NCBI RefSeq assembly: GCF_947366995.1
Contig: NZ_CANBCC010000006.1
Span: 28,208 to 92,207, forward strand
Length of the DNA stretch: 64,000 nucleotides
From: an uncultured Aquabacterium sp.
GTDB lineage: Bacteria > Pseudomonadota > Gammaproteobacteria > Burkholderiales > Burkholderiaceae_C
Reading direction: 5' to 3'
In this document: positions 1,381-28,656 of the stretch, piece after piece
Layout: each line of letters starts with the position of its first letter
How positions within the stretch are numbered: position 1 is the stretch's first letter
Made by a program: the position numbers and the translations under genes
Notes under the pieces: generated by a model
Told to the model about the DNA's origin: nothing
The model's input: only the letters and a program-made list of their open reading frames with translations
Databases searched by the model: none

Positions 1381-2010
1381 TCAGACCAGCCCGTTGCGGA
1401 TCGCGTAGACCGTCAGCTCGGAGTTGTTCGTCAGCCCGAGCTTTTCGAGCACGCGGGCCCGGTAGACGCTGACGGTCTTCGGGCTCAGCAGCAGCTGTTC
1501 GGCGATGTCGGACAGGCGCTTGCCCGAGGCGATCATCACCAGCGTCTGCAGTTCGCGATCGGACAGCTTCTGGTGCAGGTCTTCCTGCGCCGGCGTGGTG
1601 AGGTTGTCGACCAGCATCTGCGCCATCTCGGGCGTCACGTACTTCTTGCCCTGAGCCACCGTGCGCACGGCCGCCACGATCTGCGCGGCATCGCTGCCCT
1701 TGTTCAGGTAGCCCGAGGCGCCGGCCTTGAGCGCCCGCATGGCGTACTGGTCTTCCGGGTACATCGACACCACCAGCACCTTCAGCGTGCTGCCTTCTTC
1801 CTTGAGCACGTGCAGCACGTCCAGGCCACTGCGGCCGGGCAGGTTGATGTCGAGCACCAGCACATCGCAATTCTTGTCACGCAGCAGCGCGCGCAGCTCG
1901 CCGTAATCGGCAGCCTCGCCCACGACCTCGATGTCGGCGGCATCGGCCAGCGTGTCGCGGATGCCGCGCCGGATCAGCGCGTGGTCGTCACAGAGTATGA
2001 CTTTGATCAT
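1381..2010 (-). CDS. NarL/FixJ-type two-component response regulator
   Basis: The ORF track extends upstream, but the receiver domain begins at MIKVILCDDHALIRRG, so the ATG at 2010 is chosen (209 residues). The receiver has the acidic pair DD near the N-terminus, the phospho-acceptor Asp in VLVLDINLPGRSG and the Lys in YLNKGSD. The C-terminal LuxR-type helix-turn-helix reads LSDRELQTLVMIASGK...SPKTVSVYRARVLEKLG. It lies 4 bp after the stop of the histidine kinase gene and is surely co-transcribed with it. The likely role is a transcription factor phosphorylated by that kinase; target genes cannot be told from the sequence. Confidence 0.9.
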   Translation of the reverse strand: MIKVILCDDHALIRRGIRDTLADAADIEVVGEAADYGELRALLRDKNCDVLVLDINLPGRSGLDVLHVLKEEGSTLKVLVVSMYPEDQYAMRALKAGASGYLNKGSDAAQIVAAVRTVAQGKKYVTPEMAQMLVDNLTTPAQEDLHQKLSDRELQTLVMIASGKRLSDIAEQLLLSPKTVSVYRARVLEKLGLTNNSELTVYAIRNGLV

Positions 2011-2014
2011 GTGC

Positions 2015-3232
2015 TCAGCCCCATACCGTGGGATCGTCGGGGTCCGTGTCGCTGGCCGGGGCGTCCGCGTCCAGGTTCGTGAACAGTTGGTCGATGAAGC
2101 CATTTTCCGGCCCTGACAACGGGACGGAGAGGATCAGCGTGGTGCCGCCGGGGTTGCTGCTGATGTCGACCCAGCCGCCTACCGTCTCCGCGCGTTCGTG
2201 CAGGCCGCGGATGCCGAACGACCTCGCCTTGGCCAGATCGTCGGCACTCAGCCCCCGGCCATTGTCGGTGACTTCGATGGACAGCACGCCGCCGGCCTGG
2301 GTGACATCGACGCTGACCTGGGTGGCCTGTGCGTGTTTGGAGACATTGGTAAGCGCCTCCTGCGCGAATCGGTACGCCACGAGGGGCACGCCGGCGGGCA
2401 GTTCGAGCTGTTCCTGGCTGGTTCGAAAACGCGCCTGCAGGCCGGTCCGCTTGCCGAAGCGGTCGGTCATCCATTGCAGTGCGGGCACCAGCCCCTGCTC
2501 GAGGATGGCAGGCCGCAGGTTGTGCATGATGCGCTGGCTGGCCTCGTGCGCATGGTTCACGGCTTCCAGTGCCTGTTGCACGCGGTCGGCAATCTGGGGA
2601 TTCGGTGCATGGCGGGCCATCCACGCCAGATCGAACTTGATCGCCGTCAGCGCGCCACCCACGTCGTCGTGGATCTCGCGCGCGATGGCGGCCCGCTCCT
2701 GCTCGATGCTGGTCTGCAGGTGCTGGGCCAGCTCGCGCAATTGCTGCCGCGAACGGCTCAGGGCCAGGTCGGCCCGCTGCTTGGCGATCCGGATGCGATT
2801 GGCCTCGATGGCCAGCAGGGCGGCCGGCGCCAGCCGTGTCAGGTTGCTCTTGAGCAGGTAGTCGTTGGCGCCGTTGCGCATGGCCTGCACGGCGATGTCC
2901 TCGCCGATCTCGCCCGAGACGAGGATGAAGGGCACCAGCTTGCCCAGCGCGCGGATCTTGTCCAGCGCGGCCAGGCCGGAGTAGCCGGGCAGGTTGTAGT
3001 CCGACAGGATCAGGTCCCAGTCCTCATGCAGGGCATCGGACAGGGCCACCTCGGTGTCGATGCGGTGGATGTCTGCATTGATGCCGCCGCGGTGCAGGTG
3101 GATGGCGACCAGCGCCGCGTCCTCCTCGTTGTCCTCGATGTGCAGGACCTTCAGTCGCACCGGCGGGAGGCCGTCTGAACCCGGGGATGGCGCTACGGCG
3201 TCAACAGGGGGCTGGGGTGTGAAATCGGACAC
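2015..3232 (-). CDS. sensor kinase with N-terminal receiver domain and HisKA_3/HATPase core
   Basis: The chosen start is the GTG at 3232 with GAAGG upstream; the ORF-track start at 3319 adds an unconvincing leader. The 405-residue protein has a receiver domain first (VLHIEDNEEDAALVAIHLH, phospho-Asp in LILSDYNLPGYSG). A coiled region follows, then the HisKA_3 motif AIAREIHDDVGGALTAIKFD (phospho-His near residue 185) and a HATPase_c domain with the N-box-like VSKHAQA, VTDNGRGL and GIRGLHERAETVGG. No membrane helix is visible, so it should be cytoplasmic and receive its input through the receiver domain from another kinase. Its own output partner is the adjacent LuxR-type regulator. The input signal is unknown. 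Confidence 0.88.
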   Translation of the reverse strand: MSDFTPQPPVDAVAPSPGSDGLPPVRLKVLHIEDNEEDAALVAIHLHRGGINADIHRIDTEVALSDALHEDWDLILSDYNLPGYSGLAALDKIRALGKLVPFILVSGEIGEDIAVQAMRNGANDYLLKSNLTRLAPAALLAIEANRIRIAKQRADLALSRSRQQLRELAQHLQTSIEQERAAIAREIHDDVGGALTAIKFDLAWMARHAPNPQIADRVQQALEAVNHAHEASQRIMHNLRPAILEQGLVPALQWMTDRFGKRTGLQARFRTSQEQLELPAGVPLVAYRFAQEALTNVSKHAQATQVSVDVTQAGGVLSIEVTDNGRGLSADDLAKARSFGIRGLHERAETVGGWVDISSNPGGTTLILSVPLSGPENGFIDQLFTNLDADAPASDTDPDDPTVWG

Positions 3233-3438
3233 GCGCTGCCTTCGATCCGTGGATGAGTGCCTGGAATTGCCACGTGATTGTGAACAACTGGCGCCTTGAA
3301 ATGCGAAAAATTCTAACAACCGGTTTAAGCCGGGGCCTCACTGTGCCGATGACAGGGGGATCCTGGGTGTGCCGGCACATCCTTCATCGCGTCTCCCCTC
3401 GGATGGCGCGACATACAAACTGGTTGAGTGGAGCCACG

Positions 3439-3888
3439 ATGAGTTACGACGAACCGGTCGCCAACCCCCCTGCGGAGATGCCCCTCCTCCTCGCAGCGGA
3501 GTTGCAGGACCACCTGATGACGGCGTCCAACGATCTGGAGCGCCTGCAGCGGCTTCTGGACGACGCTTGTGTCGTGCTCATGGAAGGTTTCCACGGGACG
3601 GCCGGGCAGCTCAGTGACGTGATTGACCAGGGGCACGCCGTCACGCCGCACCTGGAAGAGGTGCGGCAGACCCTGTACCGCACGGTCACGGCCCTGCAGT
3701 TCCAGGACATGGCGACCCAGCTGATCGCCCACACCAACAACCGATTGCGGAACTGTGCCGACCAGATCGCGCGCGACGCACTGGGCGACGACGACCCGGA
3801 CGGCGCGGCGGTGGTGGCGGATGCCCCGATGAAACCCAACCCGGTGACCCAGGACGAGATGGACGCCGGGTCGGTCGAGTTGTTCTAA
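3439..3888 (+). CDS. cheZ: CheZ-like chemotaxis phosphatase
   Basis: The ATG at 3439 (MSYDEPVANP) is preferred to the ORF-track start, which adds 62 residues of non-coding-looking sequence reaching into the divergent kinase leader. The 149-residue, mostly helical protein contains QFQDMATQ, with D90 and Q94 spaced as the catalytic Asp143/Gln147 of E. coli CheZ (QDLTGQ). The C-terminus is acidic with a hydrophobic end (VTQDEMDAGSVELF), resembling the CheY-binding tail of CheZ. It is much shorter than E. coli CheZ (214 residues). Its position 96 bp before cheY supports a role in dephosphorylating CheY-P. The symbol is given by motif and context, not overall similarity. Confidence 0.7.
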   Translation: MSYDEPVANPPAEMPLLLAAELQDHLMTASNDLERLQRLLDDACVVLMEGFHGTAGQLSDVIDQGHAVTPHLEEVRQTLYRTVTALQFQDMATQLIAHTNNRLRNCADQIARDALGDDDPDGAAVVADAPMKPNPVTQDEMDAGSVELF

Positions 3889-3984: not shown

Positions 3985-4347
3985 ATGCATTCGATCCTTG
4001 CCGTCGACGATTCTGCGTCCATGCGCCAAATGGTTTCCTTTACCCTCAAGAGCGCCGGCTACAACGTCGTCGAGGCCGTGGACGGTCAGGATGCCTACGA
4101 GAAGGCCGGCGGCCGCAGCTTTGATCTGGTGCTGACCGATCAGAACATGCCCCGCATGGACGGCATCAGCCTGACCAAGAAGCTGCGTGAGAACCCCCAG
4201 TTCAAGACCACGCCCATCCTCATCCTGACGACCGAGTCGAGCGATCAGATGAAGCAGGCGGGGCGCGCGGCTGGCGCGACGGGCTGGCTGGTCAAGCCCT
4301 TCGACCCGAACAAGCTCATCGAGGTGATCCAGAAGGTCATCCGCTGA
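3985..4347 (+). CDS. cheY: chemotaxis response regulator CheY
   Basis: This is a single-domain receiver of 120 residues. It has the acidic pair in ILAVDDSASMRQMV, the phospho-acceptor Asp in LVLTDQNMPRMDG, the Thr in ILTTES and the Lys in LVKPFDPNKL. Length and motifs fit CheY, which carries phosphate from CheA to the flagellar motor or another target. A GGAG-type ribosome site precedes the ATG. It sits between the CheZ-like phosphatase and cheA in one orientation, so the four genes probably form an operon. Confidence 0.92.
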   Translation: MHSILAVDDSASMRQMVSFTLKSAGYNVVEAVDGQDAYEKAGGRSFDLVLTDQNMPRMDGISLTKKLRENPQFKTTPILILTTESSDQMKQAGRAAGATGWLVKPFDPNKLIEVIQKVIR

Positions 4348-4403: not shown

Positions 4404-6581
4404 ATGGCAGAGACCAGCACGGACAACAGCACTTCATCGGCCGGCATCGACCTGAGCCAGTTCTACCAGGTCTTCTTCGAAGAAGCCGGCGAGAACCTCG
4501 AGAACATGGAACAGCTCCTGCTGGAGCTGGACATCACCGCCGCCGATGACGAAGAGCTCAATGCGATCTTCCGTTGCGCCCACTCGATCAAGGGTGGCGC
4601 CGCGACCTTCGGCTTCAGTGACGTGGCCGAACTGACCCACCAGATGGAGACGCTGCTGGACAAGCTGCGCCGCCACGAGCTCGCGCCGACGGCCCCGATG
4701 GTCGACGTGCTGCTGCAGTCGGGCGATGCGCTCAAGGCCATGCTGGCACGTCACCAGGGCTCGGGCGGCGGCGAAGTCGACACGACGGAACTGCTGTTCC
4801 ACATCCGTGCGATGGCGTCGGGCGAAGCACCGGCCGCCGTGGCGGCGGCTCCGGCGGTTGCCGCGCCGGCCCCATCCGCACCGGCACCTGCACCCGCCGA
4901 GGCAGCGCCTGCTTCTGCAACGGCCGCGCCGACCTCGGGCCAGCGCACCGTCGAACTGCGCGTCGGGCCCCTGGCCGACCCTTCGCAGGCCGACAACCTG
5001 GTGGACCTGTTCAAGGAAATCACCGACCTCGGCACGATCGAGCCGCTGCCCGATGATGCGGCGCTGGCCGGTCTGCGCCGCTTCAAGGTCAGCACCGCCA
5101 CCGCCGAATCCGAACTGCTGGATCTGTTCACCTTCCATGTCGCCCGCGAACAAGTGAGCTTTGTCGCCCTGGCAGACGCCGGTGCCGTGGCCGCCCCGGC
5201 GGTCGATCCGGGCTATGGCTTCTTCGACGAGCCTGCACCGGTGGCGGCGGCGCCCGCTGCGCCGGCGGCCGAAAAGGGCTATGGCTTCTTCGACAACGCG
5301 CCGGGCGCCCCCGAAGCGCCGGCACCTGCACCGGTCGCGGTGGAAGCGGCCAAGCCGGCACCGGCCCCCAAGCCTGCGCCCGTGGCGGCCAAGGCCGAGA
5401 AGCCGCACGCCGGCCTCGAAGCCTCGACCATCCGCGTGTCCGTCGAAAAGGTCGACCAGCTCATCAACCTGGTGGGCGAGCTCGTCATCACCCAGGCCAT
5501 GCTGGCCCAGAACAGCCGCGGCCTGGACCCGGTCGTCTACCAGCAACTGGTGTCTGGCCTGACCGATCTGGACCGCAACACCCGCGACCTGCAAGAGGCC
5601 GTGATGTCGATCCGGATGATTCCGATGTCGACGGTGTTCAGCCGCTTCCCGCGCATGCTGCGCGACCTGGCCAACAAGCTGGGCAAGAAGGTCGAGCTGG
5701 TCACGCAGGGTGAAGCCACCGAACTGGACAAGGGCCTGGTCGAGAAGATCACCGACCCGCTGACCCACCTGGTACGCAACAGCTGCGACCACGGCATCGA
5801 AATGCCCGACGTGCGTCTGGCCAACGGCAAGCCGGAGGTCGGCACCATCACGCTGGCGGCCTCGCACCAGGGCGGCTCCATCGTGATCGAGGTGCGCGAC
5901 GATGGCCGCGGCCTGTCGCGCGAGAAGCTGCTGAAGAAAGCCCGTGAGAAGGGCATCGACGCACCGGACACTCTGACCGACCAGGAAGTGTGGAACCTGA
6001 TCTTCGCGCCCGGCTTCTCGACGGCCGAAGAGGTGACCGATGTGTCCGGCCGCGGTGTCGGCATGGACGTGGTCAAGAAGAACATCACCTCGCTGGGCGG
6101 CACGGTCGAAATCGACTCGGCCGAAGGCTACGGCATGCGGGTGGCGGTGCGCCTGCCGCTGACCCTGGCCATCATGGACGGCATGAGCGTGGGTGTGGGC
6201 GAAGAGGTCTACATCCTGCCGCTGTCGTCGGTGGTCGAGTCCTTCCAGGTCAGCCCCGAGATGGTCAAGACGATCGGCGGCTCCGGCCGCGTGGTCGAGG
6301 TCCGCGAGGAATACATGCCGGTGATCGAACTGGAGAAGGTGTTCCAGGTGCCCCGTTTCGACTGGGAGCACAACAGCGGGATCATGGTGGTGGTGGAAGC
6401 CGAGAGCGGGCGCGTGGCCCTGCTGGTCGACGAGTTGCTCGGCCAGCAGCAGGTCGTGGTCAAGAACCTCGAATCGAACTACCGCAAGGTCAATGACGTG
6501 TCGGGCGCCACCATCATGGGTGACGGCCGCGTGGCTCTGATTCTGGACGTGGGCAGCCTCGTGCGCCGCTCGCGTCACTGA
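4404..6581 (+). CDS. cheA: chemotaxis histidine kinase CheA
   Basis: The 725-residue protein has the full CheA order. An Hpt domain carries phospho-His60 in [15 protein letters not shown]. An Ala/Pro-rich linker follows (about 145-175), then a regulatory-domain-like segment (about 180-255) and a second long Ala/Pro linker with two copies of GYGFFD. Next come the dimerisation domain from about residue 340 ([20 protein letters not shown]), the HATPase with [19 protein letters not shown] and GRGVGMDVV, and a C-terminal CheW-like domain from about 590. It autophosphorylates and passes phosphate to CheY. It is followed by cheW after 29 bp. Receptor, cheR and cheB genes are not in this window. Confidence 0.96.
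5211..5294 (+). repeat. two in-frame 18-bp repeats encoding GYGFFD in the CheA linker
   Basis: The sequence ggctatggcttcttcgac occurs at 5211-5228 and again at 5277-5294, exactly 22 codons apart. Each copy encodes GYGFFD, embedded in Ala/Pro-rich linker. These are the only aromatic clusters in an otherwise low-complexity region, which suggests a short binding motif. Confidence 0.85.
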
Positions 6582-6610: not shown

Positions 6611-7087
6611 ATGGGCATGATGGAAAAACTGGACGTGCAGACCGATCTGGCACGTGAGTACCTGACCTTCCGCCTCGGTGACGAGGAGTACGGGATCGAC
6701 ATCCTGAAGGTGCAGGAGATCCGCGGTTACGAGAACCCCACCCGCATCGCCAATGCGCCGCACTTTCTCAAGGGCGTGGTGAACCTGCGCGGCACCATCG
6801 TGCCGATCGTGGACCTGCGCCTGCGATTCGGTTGTAGCTCGGCCGAGTACAACGCCTTCACGGTGTCGATCGTGCTGCACATCGGGCAGCGCACCATCGG
6901 CACGGTGGTCGACTCGGTGAGCGACGTGATGGAGATTCCGGCCGAGGCCATCCGTCCGGCGCCCGAGATGAGTTCGGCCATTGACGCCACCTACATCAAG
7001 GGCCTGGCCCAGGTGGGCGAGCGCATGGTGATCCTGCTCGACATCGAAAGCATGCTGATGAGCGAGGACATGGGGCTCGTGGACTGA
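6611..7087 (+). CDS. cheW: chemotaxis coupling protein CheW
   Basis: The 158-residue protein is a single CheW domain. It opens with [21 protein letters not shown], followed by [17 protein letters not shown] and [12 protein letters not shown]. CheW bridges membrane receptors to the CheA kinase at the inner membrane. A GAAGGAG ribosome site precedes the ATG at 6611; a second ATG two codons on is possible. It is the last gene of the cheZ-like/cheY/cheA/cheW run and is followed by a strong hairpin terminator. Confidence 0.95.
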
Positions 7088-16904: not shown

Positions 16905-17291
16905 GTGTCTGAAATGGAAAACAGCGTCAGGAAGGTGCTCGTCATCGACGACAGCAACACCATCCGGCGCAGCGCCGAGATCTTCCTGAAGCAGGGTGGG
17001 TACGAGGTCGTGCTGGCCGAGGATGGCTTTGATGCCCTCTCGAAAGTGAACGACCACGCGCCGGATGTCATCTTCTGCGACATCCTGATGCCGCGGCTCG
17101 ATGGCTACCAGACCTGCGCCATCATCAAGCGCAATCCGCGTTTTGCGCGCACGCCTGTGATCATGCTGTCCTCGAAGGACGGCCTGTTCGACAAGGCGCG
17201 TGGCCGCATGGTGGGGTCGCAGGACTACCTGACCAAGCCGTTCACGAAAGACCAGCTGCTGCAGGCCGTTTCCCAGTACATGGGAGCCTGA
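16905..17291 (+). CDS. pilG: twitching motility response regulator PilG
   Basis: The GTG at 16905 is preceded by GGAGGA at suitable spacing and gives 128 residues. The receiver domain has VLVIDDSNTIRRSAEIFLKQGGYEV, phospho-Asp in VIFCDILMPRLDGYQTC, MLSSKDGLFDKARGRMVG and YLTKPFTKDQLL. DSNTIRRSAE is characteristic of PilG, the regulator that drives pilus extension in the Pil-Chp pathway. It heads the pilG-pilH-pilI-pilJ-chpA run, all on the plus strand. Confidence 0.93.
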   Translation: MSEMENSVRKVLVIDDSNTIRRSAEIFLKQGGYEVVLAEDGFDALSKVNDHAPDVIFCDILMPRLDGYQTCAIIKRNPRFARTPVIMLSSKDGLFDKARGRMVGSQDYLTKPFTKDQLLQAVSQYMGA

Positions 17292-17388: not shown

Positions 17389-17754
17389 ATGCCGATCCAG
17401 AAAATACTGCTTGTCGACGATTCCAAGACCGAATTGCACGTGCTGTCCGACCTGCTGACCAAAAAGGGTTACCAGGTCCGCACCGCAGAAAACGGCGAGG
17501 AGGCGCTGCGCCGCCTGCAGGAAGACAAGCCCGACCTGATCCTGATGGACGTCGTGATGCCCGGCCAGAACGGCTTCCAGCTCACGCGCACGATCACCCG
17601 AGATCCGCAGTACGCGTCGATCCCGGTGATCATCTGTTCCAGCAAGAACCAGGAAACCGACCGCGTCTGGGGCATGCGCCAGGGCGCGCGCGACTACGTG
17701 GTCAAGCCCGTGAACCCGGAAGAGCTGCTGTCGAAGATCAAGGCCTTCGGCTGA
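17389..17754 (+). CDS. pilH: twitching motility response regulator PilH
   Basis: This single receiver domain of 121 residues has ILLVDDSKTELHVLSDLL, phospho-Asp in LILMDVVMPGQNGFQLTR, ICSSKNQETDRVWGMRQGARDYVVKPV. The ETDRVWGMRQGA segment is typical of PilH, which acts with PilG downstream of the Chp kinase and tunes retraction or acts as a phosphate sink. It lies 97 bp after pilG and 13 bp before pilI. Confidence 0.93.
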   Translation: MPIQKILLVDDSKTELHVLSDLLTKKGYQVRTAENGEEALRRLQEDKPDLILMDVVMPGQNGFQLTRTITRDPQYASIPVIICSSKNQETDRVWGMRQGARDYVVKPVNPEELLSKIKAFG

Positions 17755-20704: not shown

Positions 20705-23700
20705 ATGGACAACCTGCACGAAGACGCCCCGCTTGCCTCGGATGACCTGAGTGCCCTGGCCTGGGTGCATGAGGAGCTCCGCAAGTCGCTGGATGCGGCG
20801 CACAAGGCGCTGCACCGTGTGCTGAAGGATTCGGCTGCCGCGGGGCTGTCCGACCTCGACGCGCTCGACCCGGCTGTGCTGCGCACGGCGCGCCAGCAGA
20901 TTCACCAGGGCGTCGGGGCGCTGGAGCTGGCCGGGCTGTCCGCGGGCGCCACGCTACTGCGCGCCAGCGAGGCGGTGGTGCAGAAGTTCGTGAACCGGCC
21001 GCAGGCCATCACCGAAGACGCGGTGCGCGACGTTGAAAAGGGCTCGTTCGCCCTGCTGGACTACATCGGCCGCAAGCTGGCGGGCAAGCCCGTGTCGGCG
21101 CTGGCGCTGTTCCCGCAATACGAGGCGCTGGCCACCCGGGCGGGCGGGCCGCTGCCGCGGCCGACCGATCTGTGGAGCCAGGACTGGCCCACGGTGTCCC
21201 TCGAAGCGCCGCTGGCGCCGCCGGACGACGTGTCGCCGCGCCAGGCCGATCAGGTCACCATCGGCGACTTCGAGATGGGGTTGCTGTCGCTGCTCAAGCG
21301 TAACCAGCCGGCCGACGCTGTGGCCCTGGCTGAACTCTGCACGGCACTGGCCAGCGGAGCCGCCGAGCGCCATGCCCACCGGGAGTCTGCCACCTGGCTG
21401 TTGGCGAGCGGCTTTCTCGAAGGCGTGGCCGAGCAGCATGTGCCCTTGAACGTGCATGCCAAACGGGTGCTGTCCTCGCTGCTGAGCCAGCTGCGTAGCC
21501 TTGCAAAGGGGCAGGGCGTGCCGTCGGACCGGCTGGCCAGCGAATTGCTGTTCTTCTGTGCCCAGGCGGGGCAGGCGCCAGCGTCCCCGCGTTCGGTGCT
21601 GGCCCGCGTGCGCCAGACCTTCGGGCTGGAGCGCCACCAGCCGGTCGATCTGCAAGCGTCGCCGTTGGGCCGCTTCGATCCGTCCTGGATTGCACAGGCC
21701 ACCAAGCGTGTGGCCGGTGCCAAGGATGGCTGGTCGGCCGTGGCAGCCGGCGAGATGCTGCGCATGGCGGGTCTCAACGAGCAGTTCTCGTTGGTCGGGG
21801 ATTCGCTGCGTCGTCTTTTCCCGAGCGGCGACCGCCTGGCAGATGCCCTGGTCGATGCCGTGCAGCGCACGGTGCACTCGGCGCAGTCGCCCGAGCCCAG
21901 TCTGGCCATGGAAGTGGCCACCAGCCTGCTGTACCTGGAGGCGGCGCTGGAGGATGGCGAATTCGAGCATCCGGAGCAGGTACAGCGTGTGAGCCGCATG
22001 GCCGAGCGCATCCGCCATGTCAATGCGGGCCAGCCAGCCGAGCCTCTGGAGGGCTGGATGGAGGACCTGTATCGTCGGGTCTCCGATCGCCAGACCATGG
22101 GCAGCGTGGTGCAGGAGTTGCGCAGCACGCTGGGCGAGTGCGAGAAGCACATTGATGCCTTCTTCCGCGCCCCGGAGGACCGCACGCCGCTGGTCAACGT
22201 GCCGTCGCAGCTTCAGTCCATGCGAGGCGTGCTCGCCGTGCTGGGGCTGGATCAGGCCTCGCAGGCCGTCGTGCGCATGCGCGGCGACGTCGAACACCTG
22301 CTGCAACCCGACGCCGACCTGGATGAGGCGGCCCGTCAGGGCGTGTTCGACCGTCTGGCGAGCAACCTGGGCGCGCTCGGCTTTCTGATCGACATGATGG
22401 GCGTGCAGCCTGGGCTGGCCAAGAGCCTGTTCTCGCTGGACGAGGACTCGGGCGTGCTGTCACCGCTGATGGGCCGCGAGAAGAAGGGCCTGGGCGTGCA
22501 GCAGGAGGATCCGGTCGAAGCCGCGGCCCAGCATGTCGAGCAGGTGCACCGCGAGGAAGCCCAGGCGGTCGCCGAGGAAGTGGCGCAGGCGCTGGCACAG
22601 CCGGATGCGCCGATTGAAGACGTGAGCGAGCAACTGCAGAAGCTGGCCGAGACGCCGCACCTGCAGGTGCAGAGCGAGCTGGCCGACAACCTGGCTGCGG
22701 CACAGGCCGCGCTGGCCGAGGCGCAGGCACAGTCCGACGGCGCCGCGCTGGAGGCCGCGCGGGAGCAGGTGGCCCAGGTTCTGTCCGACCTGACGCCCGC
22801 CGAGCCGGAACTGGTCGAGCCCGAGGCGCCCGCCTTCCCGCCGCAGGCACCGCTGGCGCCCACGCCGGTGGCGGCTCCCCAGGCCACGGGCCTGGAAGAA
22901 GACGACGAGATGCGCGGCATCTTCCTGGAAGAGGCCGCCGAGGTCATTGCCGAAGCCAGACAGGCGTTGAGCGCCCTCCGGGACAACGCCGCCGATGTGC
23001 AGGCCATGACGGGCGTGCGCCGGGCGTTCCACACCCTCAAGGGCAGCTCGCGCATGGTCGGGCTGAAGGTGTACGGCGAGGCCGCGTGGGCTTGCGAGCA
23101 ACTCTACAACGCGGCGCTCGCGGCCCAGGAACCGGCGAGCGCCGACCTGCTGGGCCTGAGCGACGAACTGTTCGACCACTTTGCCGCCTGGACCGACGCG
23201 ATCGCCCGCCACAACGATGCCGCCTGGCAGGCCGAACCCGTGATCGCGGCGGCCGATGCGCTGCGCCTTCGCGGCGAGCGCATCGGGCTGATGACCCAGT
23301 CCGAGTCCGAGGTCGTGCCCGAGCTTGAGCTCGAGCACGACCCGGAGCCGGAGCCTGCTGCGGATCCGGGCCCACTGCCGTCACTGGATCTGGCACTTGA
23401 CCTGTCTGTGGTCGACCCGCTGCCGACGGTTGACGCCCCTGCCGACGTGCCCGTGCTCAATTGGGCCACGGACGAGGTGGTGAGCGAGGCCCTGGCCCGG
23501 CTGGCCGACGAGGGCCGCCTGCCTGGTGCACAGGACGCCATGGCGCCCGTCGCGCTGCTGGATGAGCCGGTTCCGGCCTCGCCCGAAGCCCTGGCGCATG
23601 CCCCGTTCGATTTCGAGCAGACCCTGCCTGGCGAAGACCTGACACTGGCTTCGGCGCCCGACACGCTGCCTCAGGCCGACTCGGGCGTGCCGGACGAGAC

Positions 23701-26700
23701 CGTGATCGAGCGCCTGAGCCTCGATCTCGACATGCGGGAGGACGATGGCCTGGGGGAGTTTCCCCCGGTGCCCGGGACCGACGCGGTTGACGCGGCACCG
23801 ACGCTCGAGTCCATCCCGGAGTCGCTCGACATCCCTCTGGATGACGAGACCACGGCGTCGGGAACCGAGGCCGGGGACGCGTTGCCCATGCCTGAGATGC
23901 ATTTGCTCGAGCCCTCGGACTTTGGTGACCTGTCGGAGGCCGCTGCCACGCAGCCGGACACCCTCCCGCCCGTGGAGGGCCCCGTGGAGTCGGATGTTGT
24001 GGCTCAGGCGGAAGTGCAGTCCGAGCCCGAGCCGGAAGCATCTGACGAGCAAGTGAAGGTGGTGGGGCCGCTGCGCATCAGCATCCCGCTGTTCAACATC
24101 TACCTCAACGAGGCAGACGAACAATCGCGCCGCTTGTGCACGCAACTCGGTGAATGGGCGCTCGAATTGCATCACCCCGTCAGCGACGACACCATCGCCC
24201 TCGCGCATTCCCTGGCGGGCAATTCGGCCACCGTGGGCTACACCGGGCTGTCCCAGCTGGCCCGCCTGCTGGAGCACGCGCTGATGCGCTCACAGGCGCT
24301 CGGCCCGGGCGACACCGATGCGGCCACGCTCTTCAACGAGGCGGCTGACGAGATCCGGCGCTTGCTGCACCAGTTCGCGGCCGGTTTCCTCAAGAGCCCG
24401 GACCCGGACCTGCTGGCCCGCCTGGCCGATTACGATCAGGCCGCGTCGCAGCAGCTCGAGGCGCGCAGCCTGCGCGGCGATCCCATCGAGTCGGGCGACG
24501 ACGACCTGGCGGCGCCTTCCGGCCGTGGTCACCTGCGGCTGGTGCATTCCGCCGATGAGCCAATCGCCACCGAGGTGGACGACACGGTCGCCGATGCCGA
24601 GGAGCCCAGCACGACGCCCCAGCCCTTGATGCCGCTGGACGAGCCGATGACGGAGACGGAGACGCAGGTCGGGATCGACATCGACCTTGATCTCGGCGAG
24701 CTCAACGAAGTCCAGGAAGCGCCTGCACTGGATGCTGCCGAAGCCGAAGCAGCGACCGCCAGTGACGCGCCCGCCACCAACGATGCGCCCGTTGACACGA
24801 TCACACCGGATGCCATGGCCCAGCCCGACGAGGTGATCGAGCTCGACGCGGCAGCCCCGGGCTACACGCAGCCCGCGCCCCTGGGCGTGCCCGAGTTCCG
24901 CGCGCTGGATGAGGTGCCCGTGCCTCAGCCAGGGCAGCTCCCTCCGTCTGCCGCCGCGCTCTCCAGCCAGGCCGACTGGGATGACGAGGCCGACGTCGAT
25001 GCGGAAGACCACGTCGACCCGGACCTGTTCCCCATTTTCGAGGAAGAGGCACAAGAGCTGCTGCCCCAGCTGGCCAACCAGATCCGCCAGTGGCTGGACA
25101 TGCCCGAGAACCCGGCAGCCGCCACTGCGTGCATGCGCACGCTCCACACTTTCAAGGGCGGCGCGCGCCTCGCGGGGGCCATGCGCCTCGGCGAACTCGC
25201 GCATCGGCTGGAGTCGCGCATCGAGCGCCTGCTGGCAGCCGAATCCGTCCAGCATGACGACGTCGCGCCGCTGGAGTCGCGTGTGGATCGCCTTGTGGAG
25301 TTGTTCGAAGGGCTGCGCCACAAGGAGTCGCAGGACCTGGTGCCGCCCTGGCCGGAGGCCTCCCCCGAGCCGTTCGCTGAGCCCGTGTCACCCGAACCGG
25401 TGGGCGACGGCGCGACCGAGCAGTCTCCGGACATGGATGCATCGCCGCATCCCGCGGCAGATGAGCCCGAAGGCGGACGACCTCGCACGGCGGACGGCGT
25501 GCCTCCCGGGGCCACGTCGGAAGAGCCAGGGGCATCGCTTCCCGAAACGGGCCAGGGCATCGACTGGACGCAACTGGATCGACCGGCCTCGGCGCCCGCC
25601 GTGCGCACGGCGCGTGACGCACCAGCCCAGCCTTCCCAGGCTGCGGTGCGCGTACGCCCCCAGCTGCTCGACCGCCTGGTGAACCACGCTGGCGAGGTGT
25701 CGATCACCCGCACCCGTTTGCAGTCGCAGGTGGGTCAGATCCGCGGGTCGCTGACCGATCTGACGGACAACCTGGATCGTCTGCGTCAGCAGCTGCGGGA
25801 CATCGAGCTGCAGGCCGAGACCCAGCTGAGCACCCGCATGGAAGCCGCCCGTGCGGCCGCCCAGAATTTCGATCCGCTCGAATTCGACCGCTACACCCGC
25901 TTCCAGGAGCTGACGCGGATGATGGCCGAGTCGGTCAACGACGTGGCCACGGTGCAGCGCACATTGCAGCGCAACCTCGAAACCGCAGAAGACCAGCTCG
26001 CCGCCCAGGCCCGCCTCACGCGCGACCTGCAAGACGACCTGCTGCGTACCCGCATGGTCGAGTTCGACAGCCTGTCCGATCGCCTCTACCGTGTCGTGCG
26101 GCAGGCGGCCAAGGAAACCGGCAAGCAGGTGCGCCTGGACGTGGTGGGCGGGCAGACCGAAGTCGACCGCGGCGTGCTGGAGCGCATGACCGGCGCATTC
26201 GAGCACCTGCTGCGCAACTGCATCACCCATGGCATCGAATCGCCGGAACAGCGTCAGGCTGCAGGCAAGGACGCCAGCGGCCAGATTACCGTGGCACTCA
26301 AGCAGGAAGGCAACGAAGTTGTCATCTCCTTCCGGGATGACGGCGCTGGACTCGACCTCCAGCGCATCGCCGCCCGGGCACGCGCGTCGGGGCTACTCGC
26401 CGCCGATGCCGAGCCCACCGAGGCCGAGTTGGCCCAGCTGATCTTCACGCCTGGGTTCTCGACAGCCGAGGTGGTGACGGAGCTGGCCGGCCGCGGGATC
26501 GGCATGGACGTGGTGCGATCGGAAGTCAACGCGATGGGCGGCCGCATTGAGACCGCTTCGGCCGCGGGCCAGGGCACGAGCTTCACGCTGGTGCTGCCCC
26601 TGACGACGGCCGTCACGAAGGTGGTGATGCTGCGCTTCGGCACGGCCACCGTGGCGGTGCCCACGCACCTGATCGAGATCGTGCGCCGCGCCCGACCGCA

Positions 26701-27526
26701 GGAAGTCGAGCAGGCCTACCGCGAGGGCCGCTTCCCCTTCGGCGACCACGTGCTGCCGTTCTACTGGCTGGGGGCCCTGCTGAGCGCGTCGCCACGGGGC
26801 AGCGAGGGCGGCCGCAGCCTGCCGGTGGTGGTGGTGCGCTCGGCGCAGCAGCGCGTGGCCCTGCACGTCGACGAAGTGCTGGGCAACCAGGAAGTGGTCG
26901 TGAAGCACCTCGGCCCCCAGCTGTCGCGCCTGCCCGGTCTGGCCGGCATGACGCTGCTGGCCTCCGGCGCCGTCTCGCTCATCTACAACCCGGTGGCCCT
27001 GGCCACGGTGTACGGCGATGCTGCGCGGGCGGCCACGGCGGCGTCGCTGCAGGCGCTGGGCGCATCGCCACAAGGCTGGCTGTCGCATGCCGCGCCGTCG
27101 ACCACGGTCGACCCTGATGTGCCCCCGGCGGCGTCCGAGACGGAGGCGCCGCTGGTGCTGGTGGTGGACGACTCGCTCACGGTGCGCAAGGTCACGCAGC
27201 GCCTGCTGGTGCGCGAAGGCTACCGCGTCATTCTGGCCAAGGACGGCCTGGAAGCCCTGGAGCGCCTCGCCCAGGAACGCCCGACCGTCGTCCTGTCCGA
27301 CATCGAGATGCCGCGCATGGACGGTTTCGACCTCCTGCGCAACGTCCGCGCCGACGGGCAGCTGGCCGATCTGCCGGTCATCATGATCACCTCCCGGATC
27401 GCGCAGAAGCACCGCGATGTCGCGATGGAGCTCGGCGCGAACCATTACCTTGGCAAGCCGTATGGCGAAGAAGAGCTGCTGGCGCTGGTTGCGCGTTATG
27501 CTCTGAAGCGACCGGAGCTGGTCTGA
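20705..27526 (+). CDS. chpA: Pil-Chp hybrid histidine kinase with multiple Hpt domains (ChpA/PilL)
   Basis: The 2273-residue protein is a giant CheA. The first 700 residues are helical and contain degenerate Hpt-like modules without a phospho-His. Three recognisable Hpt sites follow: H776 in RRAFHTLKGSSRMVG, H1168 in ALAHSLAGNSATVGY and H1481 in RTLHTFKGGARLAG. Long acidic Asp/Glu/Pro linkers separate them. Then come the dimerisation domain (LLDRLVNHAGEVSITR), the HATPase (HLLRNCITHGIESPEQ, GRGIGMDVV), a CheW-like domain and a receiver with phospho-Asp2199 in VVLSDIEMPRMDGFD. It phosphorylates PilG and PilH on pilus or surface signals. It begins 18 bp after pilJ. Confidence 0.95.
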   Translation: MDNLHEDAPLASDDLSALAWVHEELRKSLDAAHKALHRVLKDSAAAGLSDLDALDPAVLRTARQQIHQGVGALELAGLSAGATLLRASEAVVQKFVNRPQAITEDAVRDVEKGSFALLDYIGRKLAGKPVSALALFPQYEALATRAGGPLPRPTDLWSQDWPTVSLEAPLAPPDDVSPRQADQVTIGDFEMGLLSLLKRNQPADAVALAELCTALASGAAERHAHRESATWLLASGFLEGVAEQHVPLNVHAKRVLSSLLSQLRSLAKGQGVPSDRLASELLFFCAQAGQAPASPRSVLARVRQTFGLERHQPVDLQASPLGRFDPSWIAQATKRVAGAKDGWSAVAAGEMLRMAGLNEQFSLVGDSLRRLFPSGDRLADALVDAVQRTVHSAQSPEPSLAMEVATSLLYLEAALEDGEFEHPEQVQRVSRMAERIRHVNAGQPAEPLEGWMEDLYRRVSDRQTMGSVVQELRSTLGECEKHIDAFFRAPEDRTPLVNVPSQLQSMRGVLAVLGLDQASQAVVRMRGDVEHLLQPDADLDEAARQGVFDRLASNLGALGFLIDMMGVQPGLAKSLFSLDEDSGVLSPLMGREKKGLGVQQEDPVEAAAQHVEQVHREEAQAVAEEVAQALAQPDAPIEDVSEQLQKLAETPHLQVQSELADNLAAAQAALAEAQAQSDGAALEAAREQVAQVLSDLTPAEPELVEPEAPAFPPQAPLAPTPVAAPQATGLEEDDEMRGIFLEEAAEVIAEARQALSALRDNAADVQAMTGVRRAFHTLKGSSRMVGLKVYGEAAWACEQLYNAALAAQEPASADLLGLSDELFDHFAAWTDAIARHNDAAWQAEPVIAAADALRLRGERIGLMTQSESEVVPELELEHDPEPEPAADPGPLPSLDLALDLSVVDPLPTVDAPADVPVLNWATDEVVSEALARLADEGRLPGAQDAMAPVALLDEPVPASPEALAHAPFDFEQTLPGEDLTLASAPDTLPQADSGVPDETVIERLSLDLDMREDDGLGEFPPVPGTDAVDAAPTLESIPESLDIPLDDETTASGTEAGDALPMPEMHLLEPSDFGDLSEAAATQPDTLPPVEGPVESDVVAQAEVQSEPEPEASDEQVKVVGPLRISIPLFNIYLNEADEQSRRLCTQLGEWALELHHPVSDDTIALAHSLAGNSATVGYTGLSQLARLLEHALMRSQALGPGDTDAATLFNEAADEIRRLLHQFAAGFLKSPDPDLLARLADYDQAASQQLEARSLRGDPIESGDDDLAAPSGRGHLRLVHSADEPIATEVDDTVADAEEPSTTPQPLMPLDEPMTETETQVGIDIDLDLGELNEVQEAPALDAAEAEAATASDAPATNDAPVDTITPDAMAQPDEVIELDAAAPGYTQPAPLGVPEFRALDEVPVPQPGQLPPSAAALSSQADWDDEADVDAEDHVDPDLFPIFEEEAQELLPQLANQIRQWLDMPENPAAATACMRTLHTFKGGARLAGAMRLGELAHRLESRIERLLAAESVQHDDVAPLESRVDRLVELFEGLRHKESQDLVPPWPEASPEPFAEPVSPEPVGDGATEQSPDMDASPHPAADEPEGGRPRTADGVPPGATSEEPGASLPETGQGIDWTQLDRPASAPAVRTARDAPAQPSQAAVRVRPQLLDRLVNHAGEVSITRTRLQSQVGQIRGSLTDLTDNLDRLRQQLRDIELQAETQLSTRMEAARAAAQNFDPLEFDRYTRFQELTRMMAESVNDVATVQRTLQRNLETAEDQLAAQARLTRDLQDDLLRTRMVEFDSLSDRLYRVVRQAAKETGKQVRLDVVGGQTEVDRGVLERMTGAFEHLLRNCITHGIESPEQRQAAGKDASGQITVALKQEGNEVVISFRDDGAGLDLQRIAARARASGLLAADAEPTEAELAQLIFTPGFSTAEVVTELAGRGIGMDVVRSEVNAMGGRIETASAAGQGTSFTLVLPLTTAVTKVVMLRFGTATVAVPTHLIEIVRRARPQEVEQAYREGRFPFGDHVLPFYWLGALLSASPRGSEGGRSLPVVVVRSAQQRVALHVDEVLGNQEVVVKHLGPQLSRLPGLAGMTLLASGAVSLIYNPVALATVYGDAARAATAASLQALGASPQGWLSHAAPSTTVDPDVPPAASETEAPLVLVVDDSLTVRKVTQRLLVREGYRVILAKDGLEALERLAQERPTVVLSDIEMPRMDGFDLLRNVRADGQLADLPVIMITSRIAQKHRDVAMELGANHYLGKPYGEEELLALVARYALKRPELV

Positions 27527-27537
27527 CTGCCCACTTT

Positions 27538-28656
27538 GTGAACGCCTCTCACCGTCCCTCTCACCCCGCCCCGGCGCCCTTCTCGTCGGGGGAGCCGCTG
27601 GCAGACGACGCGATCTCGCACCTGGCCTCCCTCACGGCCCAGCGCGATCGCGAGTTGCTGGACGTCTCCCTCGCACAAGGGGTGCTGGAGTTGCTGGGGG
27701 CCGCGAGTGTGGGGGTGTACCGCCTCGTGGGGCCGGAAGAGGAAGCGCGGCACTGGCTGTGCAGCGGCCTGGCTCGGCGCGGTCAGCTCACCGTGAGCGA
27801 TCCGGTGTGGGCCGACATGGACGCCTTGCCGAGCGAAAGCCATTTCCCCTTGCGGCAACAGGCGGTGGGCAATCGGGCCATCGCCCAGGCCGAGTTGCCT
27901 GCGTCGGCCGGCCCGGAAACCGAAGGGCGATTCGTCTGCGTGCTGCCCCTGCTGGTCGAAATCGGCTCGCCCGGGGTGCTCGAAGTGCGTTCGGAGCGCC
28001 CGCTCACCCCGGCCGCGCTGCGCCCGATTCAGACGCTGCTGCGCGTGTTCGCCAATTTCCAGAGCCTGCTGGAGTCCAGCCAGCGCGATGCCCTGACCGG
28101 CCTGCTGAACCGCCAGACCTTCGACGCCACCTTTCTGCGGGCCTCGATGCCTTCCGAGCGGGGTGGCGTGCCAGTCGAGCCTGAGCGCCGCGTGGGCGGC
28201 ACCACCGGCTACTGGCTTGGCGTCATCGACATTGACCATTTCAAGAAAGTCAACGACGGCTACGGCCACCTGATCGGTGACGAGGTGCTGGTGCTGCTGG
28301 CCCGCATCATGCGTCAAACCTTTCGCCACTCCGACCGGCTCTACCGCTTCGGCGGTGAAGAGTTCGTGGTGTTGCTGCGCGGCGGCACCGAGGCCGATGC
28401 CTTCGGCGCCTTCGAGCGTTTCCGCGAACTGGTCGAGGGTTACGCCTTCCCGCAGGTTGGCCGGGTCACGGTCAGCATCGGTTTCACCGAGGTGCAACTG
28501 CAGGACACGCCCAACGCCGCGTTCTCGCGCGCCGACCAGTCGGTCTATCTCGCCAAGCACCAGGGGCGCAACCGGGTAGTGGGCTTCGAGTCGCTGGTGC
28601 GCTCGGGCCTGCTGACGGACAACGGGCAGCACATCGGCGACGTCGAGCTGTTCTGA
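27538..28656 (+). CDS. GAF-like/GGDEF diguanylate cyclase
   Basis: The 372-residue protein starts at GTG 27538, 11 bp after the chpA stop; no ATG is better placed. Residues about 35-180 look like a GAF-type sensory domain. The GGDEF domain starts at DALTGLLNRQTF, has IDIDHFKKVNDGYGHLIGDE, the active-site variant GGEEF at about residue 272 and the inhibitory I-site RHSD exactly five residues before it. It should therefore make c-di-GMP and be product-inhibited. About 25 extra residues lie between the first helix and the metal-binding strand. The C-terminus ends in GDVELF. Its position suggests control by the Chp pathway. Confidence 0.92.
   Translation: MNASHRPSHPAPAPFSSGEPLADDAISHLASLTAQRDRELLDVSLAQGVLELLGAASVGVYRLVGPEEEARHWLCSGLARRGQLTVSDPVWADMDALPSESHFPLRQQAVGNRAIAQAELPASAGPETEGRFVCVLPLLVEIGSPGVLEVRSERPLTPAALRPIQTLLRVFANFQSLLESSQRDALTGLLNRQTFDATFLRASMPSERGGVPVEPERRVGGTTGYWLGVIDIDHFKKVNDGYGHLIGDEVLVLLARIMRQTFRHSDRLYRFGGEEFVVLLRGGTEADAFGAFERFRELVEGYAFPQVGRVTVSIGFTEVQLQDTPNAAFSRADQSVYLAKHQGRNRVVGFESLVRSGLLTDNGQHIGDVELF

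Follow-up and report, generated by a model that had tools for sequence, protein, structure and literature searches.

The window analysed here is a 64,000-nucleotide stretch of DNA, in which the following features, belonging to a GGDEF diguanylate cyclase, a Che system, and a Chp system, are relevant to this analysis.

27538–28656, + strand: GGDEF diguanylate cyclase gene (372 aa)
Cyclase residues 182–346: GGDEF domain (PF00990 at 2.2e-30), signature GGEEF
28636–28653, + strand: cyclase tail GDVELF; the C-terminus reads GQHIGDVELF
3439–3888, + strand: CheZ*, a CheZ-like protein (149 aa) with motifs ALQFQ and DMATQ
3835–3885, + strand: conserved C-terminal block of CheZ* (PNPVTQDEMDAGSVELF) with the shared tail GSVELF; 52/52 distinct orthologues end [IV][ED]LF
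3985–4347, + strand: CheY, single-domain receiver adjoining CheZ* (PF00072 at 1.4e-29); candidate partner in the Che system
4404–6581, + strand: CheA kinase of the Che system (Hpt, H-kinase_dim, HATPase_c, and CheW domains)
6611–7087, + strand: CheW coupling protein, after cheA; 70% identity to the gene in the same place in relatives
16905–17291, + strand: PilG-type receiver of the Chp system, from the gene order receiver-receiver-CheW-PilJ-ChpA; candidate partner of the cyclase tail
17389–17754, + strand: PilH-type receiver (PF00072 at 4.1e-32, and position)
20705–27526, + strand: ChpA kinase (2273 aa) with a C-terminal receiver (Hpt, HATPase_c, CheW, and Response_reg domains)

The cyclase gene begins with GTG, and chpA lies directly upstream, its stop codon 11 bp away. 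The encoded protein carries GGEEF, a form of the GG[DE]EF signature, and is predicted to synthesize c-di-GMP. An RxxD motif stands five residues ahead of the signature (RHSD-RLYRF-GGEEF); as read from the sequence, RHSD is a possible I-site. From N- to C-terminus, the protein is laid out as an N-terminal domain, the GGDEF domain, a flexible linker, and the tail, with no Pfam match in the N-terminal ~160 residues. An AlphaFold2 model based on an alignment of 34 sequences had a mean pLDDT of 87, and a structure search with this model matched solved diguanylate cyclases. Low confidence was confined to the N-terminus, one loop, and the tail, where pLDDT values below 50 at residues 367–372 predict disorder.

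The original prediction held that this cyclase and the CheZ-like protein end in the same VELF, and both tails were verified in the sequence. In the cyclase, VELF is encoded by GTC GAG CTG TTC (28642–28653) and followed by the stop codon TGA (28654–28656); in CheZ*, whose C-terminus reads QDEMDAGSVELF (longer stretch, VTQDEMDAGSVELF) and ends GSVELF, VELF occupies 3874–3885, followed by TAA (3886–3888). The certain common part is limited to the last four to six residues, a length that leaves room for chance identity, and a QDEMDA stretch is found in CheZ* alone. We listed C-termini by DNA pattern across the whole 4.02-Mb assembly, a count that had been proposed as a check. Exactly two proteins end in V-E-L-F-stop, the cyclase and CheZ*, both of them chemosensory; a third pattern match reads TGG and has no stop. 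Given that residue frequencies, with ~3,700 proteins assumed, lead to an expectation of ~0.08 such C-termini, with a probability of ~0.003 for two or more, chance is an extremely improbable explanation for the identity of the two tails.

Widening the pattern to [VI][DE]LF-stop added one more clear protein, a CheD (TGGSIDLF) on contig 80 (PF03975 at 2.7e-30; gene order cheR-cheD-cheB). With [LIVMF][DE][LF]F-stop, the further matches were this CheD, a glutamine synthetase (LEFF; named by eye), which we regard as a bystander, and a doubtful 45-aa frame (LDLF). CheD lies outside the window and thus could not be seen when the CheZ and cyclase tails were originally paired. That pairing stands insofar as the shared tail does exist, is conserved, and shows specificity for chemosensory proteins, but since CheD carries it too, the tail is a common tag and not the end of CheZ transferred to a cyclase.

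Conservation of the tail was assessed for each of the three hosts; the homologue counts (125, 48, and 52) represent sequences linked by descent, not independent events. Among 125 distinct cyclase homologues, 105 end in [VIM][DE][LF]F, and the 20 that lack the tail count against the docking model developed below. Column entropies at the last four cyclase positions were 0.7, 1.2, 1.5, and 1.8 bits, compared with about 3.1–3.7 bits in the linker (positions -7 to -14). Phe372 is invariant in 34 aligned named homologues; it is one of 33 invariant columns, nearly all the others of which fall in the GGDEF domain. Tailed cyclase homologues also occur in Methylophaga, Marinospirillum, Thioalkalivibrio, and Pseudoalteromonas, and generic GGDEF proteins from the same homologue search do not carry the tail. 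Several genomes possess a second, diverged cyclase copy (L067, L086, L091, and others), and in some of these copies the tail is weaker and residues close to the C-terminal helix are changed.

All 52 distinct CheZ-like orthologues end in [IV][ED]LF, within a block that follows the pattern PNPVTQDEMDAGS[IV][ED]LF. The tail is present in 40/48 CheD proteins strictly and in 48/48 if as many as three additional residues are permitted. In some CheD proteins, one or two residues follow the tail Phe (e.g. ELFT, DLFQ, and ELFLK; L219, L221, L222, L225, L229, L231, L236, and L238), which also counts against the docking model and suggests that a free carboxylate on Phe is unnecessary. Loci L033–L040 are likewise listed for residues past the Phe, again together with L225 and L236. 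Because the tail is kept across orthologues while the linkers ahead of it vary in the cyclase and CheD, coincidence is ruled out: chance similarity of the two window tails is refuted by conservation in more than 100 cyclase homologues as well as in CheD and CheZ-like orthologues.

Ten GC-rich genomes (the organism's own, five relatives, Roseateles, Rugamonas, Methyloversatilis, and Thioalkalivibrio) were scanned whole for [IVM][DE]LF-stop, with very short frames and TGG sites set aside by eye. The original prediction would have been undermined by a tail occurring in many unrelated proteins; in these genomes, all 31 coding matches (3 own + 14 + 14) are chemosensory, the hosts being CheZ-like proteins, CheD, the cyclase, and proteins resembling methyl-accepting chemotaxis proteins (MCPs) with a CheZ-type motif. 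In the five related genomes, 14/14 stop-terminated matches are CheZ-like, CheD, or cyclase, compared with one real protein, a thiolase, for the scrambled tail F[DE]L[VI]-stop. Coding matches in Roseateles, Rugamonas, Methyloversatilis, and Thioalkalivibrio are CheD, cyclase, CheZ-like, or a further CheZ-type class. The latter includes MCP-like proteins from Thioalkalivibrio and Methyloversatilis (L328, L347, and L394, with motifs QFEDIARQ, QFQDMTSQ, and QFEDMVNQ, respectively); Pfam confirmed MCPsignal in L328 and L347, and the MCP likeness of L394 was judged by eye. The Rugamonas CheZ-type protein (L332/L396) is a 197-aa frame with QFQDMTSQL and the tail ESGDIELF, directly upstream of cheY; it constitutes a second type of CheZ-like protein in the place held by CheZ* elsewhere.

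In a 151-genome sample, 40 residual matches were examined, of which 14 were CheD and one was a cyclase remnant. The exceptions that appear to be coding were a metallophosphoesterase-like protein (AEAMELF), seen in two genomes, and a single protein of G082 (AAQVELF). All remaining matches look like non-coding frames. The AT-rich genomes (Pseudoalteromonas and Methylophaga) yield too many chance tail matches and were left out of the specificity counts; in Methylophaga, at least one protein ending LIDLF (L324) is seemingly unrelated to chemotaxis. Overall, the specificity of the tail for chemosensory proteins is strong in GC-rich genomes, though not absolute.

A C-terminus that is conserved but disordered is the usual sign of an intermolecular docking motif. 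Given that the tail is disordered in the AlphaFold model and yet its last Phe is invariant, it very probably serves as such a motif. Strong conservation by itself would also fit packing of the tail on its own protein, for folding or enzyme autoregulation, and we consider this highly unlikely: the tail is shared by four unrelated folds, and intramolecular docking was rejected on the basis of the disorder predicted for the cyclase. What the tail hosts have in common is a pathway, not a fold. Short C-terminal signals of comparable size are known for proteases, and the tail might conceivably mark its hosts for degradation or stability. Confinement to one pathway and tolerance of residues past the Phe in CheD speak against a signal of this kind, leaving it even less credible than intramolecular packing. 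Instead, the occurrence of one tag on a CheZ-like phosphatase, CheD, and a cyclase suggests a single common socket in the chemosensory machinery. We found no earlier description of the tail among the open-access papers searched.

The nature of CheZ* bears on what this socket might be. CheZ* gave no match to the Pfam CheZ profile (PF04344) up to E = 10, ruling it out as a Pfam-type CheZ, and ALQFQDMATQ fits the AXXFQ and DXXXQ active-site motifs as these are defined in the literature (PMC7750401). The only gene in the genome that passes the PF04344 cut-off is on contig 48; it encodes a classical E. coli-like CheZ ending NQSEVDDLLASLGF (SLGF), and its neighbours include a second CheY and a MotB-like gene (MotB assigned by eye). 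CheZ* is thus a second CheZ-type protein, with putative CheY-P phosphatase activity, and its orthologues are found in 93/151 genomes of the family. Judged by eye only, the ends of CheZ* (TQDEMDAGSVELF) and classical CheZ have a similar layout: each is the C-terminus of a CheZ-type protein, with Q-x-E-hydrophobic-D ahead of a hydrophobic end in Phe. In contrast to the classical SLGF end, the ELF tail also appears on CheD and the cyclase, where it comes without the QDEMDA part.

Genes around the relatives' loci were identified by homology. Two relatives examined in full have a single run, cheZ*-cheY-cheA-cheW-cheR-cheD-cheB, which in one of them is near the flagellar export gene fliR; in our genome, the window holds the cheA side of the run and contig 80 the cheR-cheD-cheB side. 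The single run in relatives places the tailed CheZ* and CheD in the same Che system. The window CheY is 82–83% identical in relatives that share its gene order. Divergent to cheZ*, at 1381–3319 (- strand), are a LuxR-type regulator and a receiver-histidine kinase whose place is kept in relatives (L352, L356). The CheA linker between the Hpt and dimerisation domains (CheA, 4404–6581) contains a repeated aromatic motif, possibly another docking motif. The cyclase and CheZ* co-occur: CheZ* is present in 72/77 genomes with the cyclase versus 21/74 without it (Fisher 2e-17, uncorrected for ancestry).

The cyclase had been described as Chp-linked. This holds locally: it adjoins chpA here and in many Burkholderiales, and chpA followed by the cyclase is the order in most close relatives. 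As a general description it fails, since the gene is sited elsewhere in many genomes with the tail kept; the Methylophaga cyclase, for example, adjoins a cheV gene. We therefore rejected the notion that the tail is limited to chpA-linked cyclases, and its partner should not be specific to the chpA operon.

Presence and absence of receivers narrows the choice further. Two genomes (G131 and G137) keep the cyclase tail and have PilG orthologues (78% and 83% identity) but lack any window CheY orthologue (best match 36%), which eliminates this CheY as the sole partner of the cyclase. A third genome, G044, likewise looked free of CheY, but it has a tailed CheD, is only 80% complete, and was excluded from these cases. 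Conversely, Pseudoalteromonas aurantia keeps the cyclase tail with a window CheY orthologue at 60% and no PilG orthologue found, and PilG as the sole partner is therefore not favoured. PilG orthologues at 60–88% identity occur in 8/9 genomes tested. Since the tail persists with PilG in the absence of CheY and vice versa, its partner must have counterparts in both systems. Receivers have such counterparts, as do CheA/ChpA, CheW/PilI, and CheR/CheB homologues; a polar hub would fit too.

Among these, a CheY/PilG receiver is our leading candidate, at somewhat less than even probability. By analogy, the tail on CheZ-type proteins sits where the C-terminal end of CheZ makes contact with CheY-P (PMC7750401), and the layout of the classical CheZ end in this genome is similar by eye. 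Diguanylate cyclases are bound by Shewanella CheY3, with the phospho-mimetic form binding SO4207 better (PMC7666153). Also in favour of a receiver, CheY-P controls CheD in Bacillus subtilis, through CheC (PMC3513319); CheC is the go-between in that system, whereas CheD here would bear its own docking tail. Counting against a receiver, classical CheZ ends LGF and not ELF, so that any homology to the CheY-binding end would be loose, and L329, an MCP that has no CheZ motif, bears the tail. Nor, to our knowledge, has direct binding of CheD to CheY been described.

Docking on an array component (CheR, CheB, CheA, CheW, or their Chp homologues) would gather accessory enzymes much as the chemoreceptor pentapeptide NWETF tethers the adaptation enzymes CheR and CheB. 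The tail shares with NWETF a short, acidic layout with a Phe end on a flexible linker, pentapeptides being mostly acidic (PMC7390727); every tail host works at arrays, and the hosts include the MCP L329 and the MCP-like CheZ-type proteins L328 and L347. However, pentapeptides of this class (xZxxZ, Z aromatic) need aromatics at positions 2 and 5 and are borne by receptors (PMC7390727). Position 2 of the tail is almost always Val, Ile, or Met, weakening the case for CheR/CheB-type recognition, and we rejected the tail as a CheR/CheB pentapeptide. Most hosts are enzymes and not receptors: in the window they are CheZ* and the cyclase, with one MCP elsewhere (L329). Array docking is consequently possible but rather unlikely. 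As a kind, the tail would be grouped with the C-terminal tether peptides of chemotaxis.

A polar landmark such as FimV/HubP, co-localising the enzymes at the pole, would serve both the Che and Chp systems. These landmarks bind GGDEF proteins (PMC9061725, PMC7033161), and the DgcP-FimV and PdeB-HubP pairs resemble the present case in that a c-di-GMP enzyme is recruited by a localised partner. The PdeB contact, though, is made by the GGDEF surface and involves no C-terminal tag, and the mapped docking face of FimV is negative and binds lysines of a GGDEF surface (PMC9061725), which would be unfavourable for an acidic tail. We regard this alternative as unlikely, more so than array docking.

Returning to the receiver as partner, we propose that G-[SDE]-[VI]-[DE]-L-F, the last five to six residues, is a short linear docking motif on chemosensory accessory enzymes, namely the CheZ-like phosphatase, the receptor deamidase CheD, the GGDEF cyclase, and those MCP-like proteins that contain a CheZ-type motif. 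The flexible linker would present the tail, which would plug into a common partner. A single-domain receiver is the most likely one, CheY for Che and PilG for Chp, and the contact would resemble that of the classical CheZ end with CheY-P. Through the tail, the receiver would recruit its own phosphatase, feed back on receptor adaptation via CheD, and position or activate c-di-GMP synthesis, placing the cyclase under chemosensory control. We put the chances of this model as a whole close to even. Regulation of the cyclase by receiver binding is less probable than the identification of the receiver itself. More tentatively, in beta- and gammaproteobacteria the tail may amount to a code for docking on single-domain receivers in their phosphorylated form, with one CheY-P/PilG-P surface recruiting phosphatase, CheD, and cyclase.

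Related systems offer partial precedents. In Shewanella oneidensis, a chemotaxis receiver, CheY3, contacts the diguanylate cyclases PdgA, PdgB, and SO4207 and controls biofilm; the portion of the report accessible to us describes no C-terminal tag (PMC7666153). Comamonas testosteroni, a related betaproteobacterium, has Che and Flm (Chp-type) pathways that cross-talk, with two CheYs, and neither a cyclase nor a C-terminal tag is mentioned in the accessible part of that study (PMC6391922).

The observation behind the original prediction was right and is more significant than it was taken to be, and its interpretation, in which docking of the tail on PilG or CheY could bring the cyclase under chemosensory control, is plausible once CheD is included. 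Beyond the E. coli model, it is an open question by what means receivers and arrays select the enzymes that assist them, and how c-di-GMP is linked to chemotaxis. With a tag of five residues that predicts partnership, both can be tested directly with peptides, and genome scans can bring additional network members to light. The tag also hints at a way of controlling CheD where CheZ-type phosphatases are in use. If the proposal is true, chemotaxis, CheC-free adaptation feedback, and c-di-GMP output would be wired through one interchangeable tag.
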